A stretch of 64,000 bases of DNA from Aridibacter famidurans. Its GTDB lineage: Bacteria > Acidobacteriota > Blastocatellia > Pyrinomonadales > Pyrinomonadaceae. Position 1 is the first letter of the stretch. Every line of letters starts with the position of its first letter. Made by a program: the position numbers and the translations under genes. Below, piece after piece: positions 31,605 to 33,087 of the stretch. Below the pieces are notes generated by a model that saw only the letters and a list, made by a program, of their open reading frames with translations, ran no database searches and was not told the DNA's origin. The stretch spans positions 1 to 64,000 of the forward strand of contig JAGFIQ010000017.1 in the NCBI GenBank assembly GCA_024103495.1, given 5' to 3'.

Positions 31605-31914
31605 CGGCTCAGGAGGTGCCGTGAACTTCAGTTTGCGAGGTACCGTGAACTTCAGTTTGCGCCGCGCGCACGCGCGGAACCTCGATTGGCGGTCGTTCTT
31701 CGTCCCGTTACCCAGGGCTGCGCCTTCGGCTTGCCCGGGCTGACTTCCGTAGCCGCTCTGCGGCAATGAACCCGAAAAACTCGGCCGACTCATCCTAACT
31801 CGGCAAACTCACCGAACTCGGATAACCCGGCCAACTCGATCAGACTCGACAGACTTCCCCTTTCCGTTGTAACTTACTTCCACCCCGGGAACCGCTCCCG
31901 GGATATTCTCACAC
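31605..31914. repeat. Spacer before recA: 24-bp tandem repeat, hairpin and nonamers
   Basis: Two copies of AGGTGCCGTGAACTTCAG plus TTTGCG (24 bp, one mismatch) lie at 31614-31637 and 31638-31661. A hairpin of the dispersed family is at 31709-31742 and is followed by an AGCCGCTCTGCGGCA element. Nine-to-ten-base ACTC units in inverse orientation to the cheA array run from 31778 to 31855. No gene is seen. Confidence 0.75.
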
Positions 31915-31973
31915 GTTTCACATAACAACTTCTTGTTGCATCTGTGAAACACATCTGCTACACTTCCTCCGAC
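31915..31973 (+). promoter_or_regulatory. recA promoter region with overlapping 36-bp palindrome
   Basis: The palindrome GTTTCACATAACAAC ... GTTGCATCTGTGAAAC spans 31915-31950. A candidate -35 (TTGCAT, within the right arm) and -10 (TACACT), separated by 17 bp, follow, so a bound repressor would block RNA polymerase. The position before recA makes an SOS repressor site the natural candidate, but it fits neither the E. coli CTGT-N8-ACAG nor the Bacillus GAAC-N4-GTTC consensus. Confidence 0.5.
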
Positions 31974-32019
31974 CTCACGAAATTGCCACAAATTTCTTCA
32001 GGAGAGGAGCGTAGGACCA

Positions 32020-33087
32020 ATGACAACAACGGGGACGGTAACAATGAGTGTTGATAAAGGAAAGGCCATCGACGCGGCCTTGTCTCAGATCGAAAAGAAG
32101 TTCGGCAAGGGCGCGATAATGCGCCTCGGCGAAAGGCCGGCCGAAGACGTGGGCGCCATCTCGACAAGGTGCCTCAGCCTTGACGCCGCGATCGGCGTCG
32201 GAGGCTTCCCTCGCGGACGAATAATAGAAGTGTTCGGTCCCGAAAGCTCCGGAAAGACCACGCTCGCCCTTCAGGTCGTTGCGGAAGCGCAGGCGAAGGG
32301 CGGTATCGCGGCGTACATCGACGCCGAGCACGCGCTCGATCCCGTCTATGCCGGCAAACTCGGCGTGAACGTGGACGACATGCTCATCTCCCAGCCCGAT
32401 TCGGGCGAGCAGGCGCTCGAGATCGCCGAGACCCTGGCGCGTTCGAACAGCGTCGACGTGATCGTAGTGGACTCCGTCGCGGCGCTGGTGCCGCGTGCCG
32501 AGCTCGACGGCGAGATGGGCGATTCGCATATGGGCCTTCAGGCGCGATTAATGTCGCAGGCGCTCAGAAAACTGACCGCGATCGTCTCGAACTCGAAGAC
32601 CTGTTTCATATTCATCAACCAGCTCCGCCAGAAGATCGGCGTCTTCTTCGGCTCGCCGGAGACGACGACAGGCGGAAAGGCCTTGAAGTTCTACGCAAGC
32701 GTAAGGCTCGATATTCGCCGGATCGGTTCGATCAAGGAAGGCGACCAGATGGTCGGCAACCGCACCCGCGTGAAGGTCAAGAAGAACAAGGTCGCTCCTC
32801 CGTTCCACGAATGCGAGTTCGACATCATGTACGGCGAGGGCATCTCGCGCGAGGGCGACCTGCTCGACCTCGCGGTCGACAACGGCATAGTGCAAAAGAG
32901 CGGCGCCTGGTTCTCGTACGGCGAAGAGAGGCTCGGGCAGGGCCGCGAGAAGGTGCGCCAGCTCCTGAAGGATGACGAGGCGGTCTTCGAGAGGATCGAG
33001 AACGACGTCCGGGTCAAGCTCGGTTTCATCAAGCCGGAAACTTCGGAAGCGGAAGAAGAAGAAAAAGCCGAGGGCGCTGCGGGATAA
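32020..33087 (+). CDS. recA: Recombinase A
   Basis: RecA of 355 residues, normal length. The N-terminal oligomerisation helix ([18 protein letters not shown]), Walker [14 protein letters not shown], the catalytic Glu region ([10 protein letters not shown]), Walker [14 protein letters not shown]1 and L2 loops ([39 protein letters not shown]) and an acidic C-terminus ([13 protein letters not shown]) are all present. It forms filaments on single-stranded DNA for homologous recombination and, by inference, promotes LexA self-cleavage. The Shine-Dalgarno GGAGAGGAG precedes the start by about ten bases. A Met at codon 9 (MSVDKGKA) is an alternative. Confidence 0.98.

Follow-up and report, generated by a model that had tools for sequence, protein, structure and literature searches.

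A palindromic operator conserved at recA suggests a LexA-independent, XRE-controlled DNA-repair regulon in Pyrinomonadaceae

The recA promoter of an acidobacterium from the family Pyrinomonadaceae (class Blastocatellia) carries a 16-bp palindrome, GTTKCAYNNRTGMAAC, that recurs before recA in nearly all relatives, at other repair genes and at the gene of a small XRE-type regulator. We propose that it serves as operator in a DNA-repair regulon that would be independent of LexA, controlled by the XRE protein and similar in its working to the DdrO/IrrE system of Deinococcus, and we put the probability of this reading at about 0.75. The analysis is based on sequences and structural models throughout, and the genomes used are drafts. 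The stretch of 64,000 nucleotides that was analysed, here called the window, lies in contig C92 of an acidobacterial draft assembly of 4.38 Mb, the window genome. The family assignment comes from its RecA, whose named relatives include MAGs of Pyrinomonadaceae and Acidobacteria.

The recA promoter and its operator

The features of the recA upstream region are collected in Table 1. The original prediction had placed a -35 and a -10 hexamer with a 17-bp spacer before recA, the repeat overlapping the -35 hexamer, and this promoter was recovered as proposed. The description of the site as a near-perfect inverted repeat of 36 bp, on the other hand, does not fit. The outer 8 bp pair perfectly, but in the ungapped repeat only 10 of 18 positions match overall by our own count. 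The dyad GTTTCACA-N20-TGTGAAAC occurs once in the window, and a dyad with 16-24 bp between the arms was found in none of 100 shuffles, this pattern having been chosen after the site was seen. The conserved unit is the 16-bp palindrome, and the left arm at 31915 is a separate half-site. Further upstream, between recA and a TPR-like gene, GAGGTRCCGTGAACTTCAGTTTGC stands twice in tandem (31613-31660).

Table 1. Features of the recA promoter region (positions in the window).
Feature	Position	Strand	Remark
Upstream half-site GTTTCAC with decayed right half (GTTTCACATAACAAC)	31915..31929	+	Starts 44 bp before the -10 hexamer
Full 16-bp operator GTTGCATCTGTGAAAC	31935..31950	+	Exact copy of the motif GTTKCAYNNRTGMAAC
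-35 hexamer TTGCAT	31936..31941	+	Predicted promoter element; inside the left half of the operator
-10 hexamer TACACT	31959..31964	+	Predicted promoter element; 17 bp after the -35 hexamer
Purine-rich AGGAGAGGAG	32000..32009	+	Probable ribosome-binding region
recA open reading frame	32020..33087	+	355 codons from ATG 32020; ATG 32044 is a possible alternative start

For 32 family genomes we aligned our view on the 300 bp that precede recA, with loci taken by their coordinates. Conservation in relatives, which the original prediction had named as a check, is pronounced: GTTKCAYNNRTGMAAC occurs at no more than one mismatch in 30 of the 32 genomes (17 exact, 13 with one mismatch), and shuffled recA-upstream windows contain the motif in 7 of 6400 cases. 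The two exceptions are G014, with two mismatches, and G026, which has no site. Among 18 genomes from other families of the class, none carries the motif before recA at up to two mismatches.

The position of the palindrome relative to the promoter is also largely constant. Of the 30 genomes with a site, 24 have its first base 43-44 bp ahead of a -10-like hexamer, and in 26 of the 30 a half-site TTNCAN, mostly usable as a -35 box (own count), follows 20 bp after its first base. Shorter distances to the -10-like hexamer, 30-33 bp, are found in G003, G004 and G005. The window genome and its close relatives G002 and G006 display the reversed order: the left half GTTTCA(C/T) is retained some 44 bp ahead of the -10 hexamer, and the full palindrome starts 24 bp before it. 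As judged from this spacing, the operator is shifted by about 20 bp, or two helical turns, relative to the -10 hexamer in these three genomes. The odd appearance of the 36-bp repeat would be due to this shift, which left one half-site and one full site, and operator turnover is visible here at one promoter. In two relatives (G013:C53 and G041:C111) recA itself is split within one long open frame; the two matches, 3-204 and 201-333, lie roughly 1 kb from each other, the layout that an intein would give.

Genes that carry the motif

Exact sites were counted in 19 family genomes, chosen by us from 37, and assigned to genes by our own reading, with Pfam searches for some of the proteins. We obtained 56 exact copies of GTTKCAYNNRTGMAAC compared with 3 of a reversed control pattern. 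The targets are recA (11), the promoter of the XRE regulator (11), which is often divergent from a Rad52-like gene, and genes of the DinB/YfiT family (10; PF05163, not the polymerase), followed by topoisomerase IB or a linked uncharacterised family (4), an ATPase family with a weak AAA_24 match below cut-off (3), ruvA (2), a WGR protein (2), an uncharacterised 140-aa family (2), Rad52 (1) and a DNA alkylation repair protein of the AlkD type (1). The other 9 sites fit no recurring target, and one of them lies inside a clpA-like gene.

In the window genome three sites are exact, namely those at recA, at a DinB/YfiT-family gene (C168) and at the XRE/Rad52-like pair (C63). Seven more have one mismatch. 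One precedes ruvA-ruvB and one is a second copy at the XRE gene, while two others precede a gene near the PA0069 radical SAM family (below the family cut-off) and a secreted-protein gene, look-alikes of which, identified by eye, have a site in G001 and G024. The sites in C25 and C66, both inside genes, and in C81, by a tRNA and an RdgB-like gene, were taken as chance matches. None of these ten sites lies at lexA, imuA or a recognised uvr gene, which the original prediction had named as places to look for the motif. At two mismatches the window genome contains 64 sites and the control 62; weak sites cannot be called because the two counts are equal in effect, with no excess over the control.

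Pfam gave no match for the Rad52-like protein of the window genome. In single comparisons it did match its counterparts in relatives, L189, a protein with a Rad52 domain, at E 4e-16 and L196 at E 2e-19. In Deinococcus, ddrA is of the Rad52 type. Overall, the site reads as an operator that belongs to a DNA-repair regulon and is conserved before recA in the family, and to this extent the prediction of an operator at recA stands.

One uncharacterised family with the motif, grouped by eye, comprises L302 803-1276 (-), L184, L199, L209 and L216. Neither L184 nor L216 has a Pfam match. In two genomes the gene forms a divergent pair with topoisomerase IB, and in G051 with the XRE gene.

LexA and the XRE regulator as candidate binders

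The original prediction had left the binder open between a lineage-specific LexA and another regulator, and the evidence favors the second part. One of the two LexA-type proteins of the window genome might bind the motif, which would then be the new LexA box of an otherwise standard SOS regulon; this would fit its presence at recA and ruvAB, which are usual SOS targets. The two proteins are LexA1 (C91) and an imuA-linked LexA2 (C72), and by our reading the latter keeps the AAG cleavage region as well as the catalytic Ser and Lys. LexA motifs are also described as differing between phyla, in the part of the source available to us (PMC7739468). Such a LexA box would nevertheless have to be missing from the lexA genes themselves, since the motif was found at up to two mismatches in none of 21 lexA1 promoters and none of 9 lexA2 promoters. 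LexA usually represses its own gene.

The state of LexA1 adds to this. In the window genome (L001 1078-1689 (-)) its catalytic Ser is replaced by Ala and its Lys by Gly. At least one of these two residues is missing in 13 of the 21 genomes compared, the window's included, with the DNA-binding domain kept; LexA1 of G022 and G024 retains both residues but has no Ala-Gly at the aligned cleavage site, and 6 of the 21 genomes have an intact protein. Moreover, the XRE gene carries the motif even in families that lack it at recA. We therefore regard LexA as an improbable binder of the motif. An acidobacterial SOS operator has reportedly been described before, by Mazon in 2006, for LexA of Acidobacterium capsulatum; that box is said to be a GTTC direct repeat, in contrast to the palindrome found here.

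Other candidates in the search for LexA were set aside or are noted for completeness. The second LexA match, L002, reads in our hands as an AsnC/Lrp-type regulator. A TRTCC repeat before the imuA-linked lexA was considered as the LexA2 operator but could not be used for a search, with 53 matches on both strands of the window genome compared with 27 for the reversed control. A third, weak match of the S24 type is located at C98:62550.

The XRE (Cro/C1-type) regulator is a protein of 138 aa, encoded at C63:21537-21950 in the window genome and unlinked to recA. It was found in 34 of 37 family genomes and in 43 of 60 genomes of the class sample, two of these matches being partial or weak (G031, G053). 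With a stricter cut-off over the phylum, it was detected in 15 of 199 genomes sampled, all 15 from the class Blastocatellia. The family search gave no XRE protein in G009, G029 and G036, and absence from an incomplete genome carries little weight; G009, at 74% completeness, has an exact site at recA.

Its gene carries the motif at no more than one mismatch in 29 of 33 family genomes (24 exact), and the promoter sites are often paired, 38 bp apart. The XRE gene of the window genome has three copies, one exact, one with one mismatch and one with two. G026, which has no site at recA, has an exact one at the XRE gene. Outside the family, 4 of 8 genomes have the motif in the XRE promoter at no more than one mismatch and the other 4 do not; the four genomes with the motif have none at recA. 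The operator copies at its own gene suggest that the XRE regulator is autoregulated, and their position makes it a better candidate for the binder than LexA. In the simplest history, self-control of the XRE gene would be old and recA would have joined later, in the family Pyrinomonadaceae.

The assignment of the XRE protein comes from the position of the sites, and the motif might instead be recognised by a third regulator, in charge of recA as well as of the XRE gene. Three family genomes (G008, G034 and G035) fit such a regulator, as they have the motif at recA while the best match in the XRE promoter shows three mismatches. However, no other targets are as frequent among the exact sites as recA and the XRE gene, and self-regulation is described as usual for XRE regulators in the available part of PMC12565409, so we consider control by a third protein unlikely.

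A chromosome segregation site of the ParB type hardly deserves consideration: the half-site TGTTTCAC is identical to that of parS, whose full form we take to be TGTTTCACGTGAAACA without a spacer, and parS-like TGTTTCACGTGAAACA occurs at no more than one mismatch in three of six genomes searched, each a member of the window's genus, but these sites are spacer-free and located elsewhere, whereas the recA operators have a 2-bp spacer, overlap promoters and are a mark of repair genes. Clusters of such spacer-free sites, which share the half-site of the recA operator, are located at L317 (G002:C2:654668) and at G001:C2:863233-864012.

The M78 partner and comparison with known switches

Returning to the XRE protein as the putative binder, we found a gene for an M78 protein (PF06114, ImmA/IrrE-type) directly after the XRE gene in 12 genomes read. 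By coordinates it lies within about 1 kb in G010 and G020 and 3-4 kb away in G016 and G021. The two genes are unlinked in the window genome (C54 and C63). A search of solved structures with the M78 profile returned IrrE (3dte) first and its ortholog 8slm next, with modest E values of 0.0012 and 0.0014. The M78 model (pLDDT 82) gave a similar picture, with IrrE/PprI on ranks 1-4 (E 9e-4 to 5e-3, TM about 0.46) and an M. tuberculosis regulator on ranks 5-10. Using a motif pattern that allowed H or E at the first position, we read EExxH in place of HExxH in all 18 M78 proteins, of which 12 are encoded next to the XRE gene and 6 are unlinked homologs. Because EExxH replaces HExxH, the M78 protein may not be a protease but an anti-repressor that works without cleavage.

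The following mechanism would be consistent with these data. The XRE repressor probably sits on GTTKCAYNNRTGMAAC as a dimer. Since the operator covers the -35 box of recA, the repressor would keep RNA polymerase from this promoter, and its own gene would be controlled through the operator copies described above. DNA damage would lead to inactivation of the repressor, most likely by way of the M78 partner, either through cleavage as in IrrE/DdrO or through contact as in Rir/Crh. Loss of the repressor would then switch on recA, ruvAB, the Rad52-like gene, DinB/YfiT-family genes and others.

The closest parallel is the DdrO/IrrE (PprI) system of Deinococcus, which likewise combines an XRE repressor with an M78/COG2856 partner. 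As described in the part of PMC8533742 available to us, its palindromic operator also lies at recA, ruvB, ddrA and other genes, and in D. radiodurans recA is under the control of neither LexA1 nor LexA2. What LexA still controls in several Deinococcus species is an imu-dnaE2 mutagenesis cassette, according to the accessible text of PMC8072749, and the imuA-linked lexA found here is a parallel to that. The differences are nevertheless considerable. The DdrO operator is the 17-bp RDRM, while the motif here has 16 bp and differs by eye from the RDRM sites shown in the available part of PMC8533742. The profile of the XRE protein resembles DdrO only in the common HTH domain. Its model is of modest quality (pLDDT 72, pTM 0.44), and although DdrO (6jq1) ranked first in Foldseek, this whole-model match is weak (E 1.1e-3, TM 0.40) and no match reaches E 0.001. 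In a second structure comparison, which covers residues 10-80, DdrO appeared on ranks 26, 27, 37 and 42, below many other HTH proteins. Furthermore, IrrE has HExxH where the partner here has EExxH, the M78 protein of about 210 aa leaves no room for a GAF domain, and the phyla differ. The Blastocatellia system would work like DdrO/IrrE but is set apart by operator, partner motif and lineage, and we do not count it as a member of that system.

Similar gene pairs are known from mobile elements. In ImmR/ImmA and other COG2856/XRE pairs, too, a short M78 gene comes after the XRE gene, and section 4.4 of PMC8072749 calls these pairs widespread. They differ in controlling one element, where the sites here lie at many chromosomal repair genes, and in the HEXXH named in that section, where the proteins here have EExxH. 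A precedent for a non-cleaving partner is Rir/Crh of a Streptococcus thermophilus prophage, in which, by the accessible text of PMC7907104, the COG2856 protein inactivates the XRE repressor without cleavage; it differs in being a prophage switch and in the predicted HEXXH of Rir. DdiA of Myxococcus xanthus is likewise an XRE regulator in a LexA-independent DNA-damage response. It is described as a co-regulator, and the available part of that source mentions no M78 partner (PMC12288472). A search of titles and abstract beginnings in the open-licence literature returned no paper that deals with the motif, nor one about a damage response of the XRE/M78 type in Acidobacteria.

The control of recA by an XRE/metallopeptidase pair instead of LexA has been described above all for Deinococcus and related bacteria. 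If a major soil phylum has such a regulon too, this would be a sign that switches of the ImmR/ImmA type became genome-wide damage responses more than once, and a defined candidate operator, regulator and partner are now available for study. The conserved EExxH also raises the question of whether a protein with the IrrE fold can work without the usual zinc site. More tentatively, and with greater doubt than confidence, we suggest that Blastocatellia evolved a chromosomal XRE/COG2856 damage response separately from Deinococcus, that recA was taken over from LexA in Pyrinomonadaceae, that LexA1 lost its self-cleavage residues in many members and that an IrrE-fold partner with EExxH removes the repressor without cutting it.

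Two observations concern the M78 genes themselves. The M78 gene of the window genome (L311 865-1503 (-)) overlaps the start of a GAF/phosphatase-like gene around position 865, and IrrE itself has a GAF-like domain. In G023, a second and more distant XRE gene (G023:C3:14898-15730, L272; 45% identity) has as its neighbour an M78 gene in which the canonical HExxH is present.
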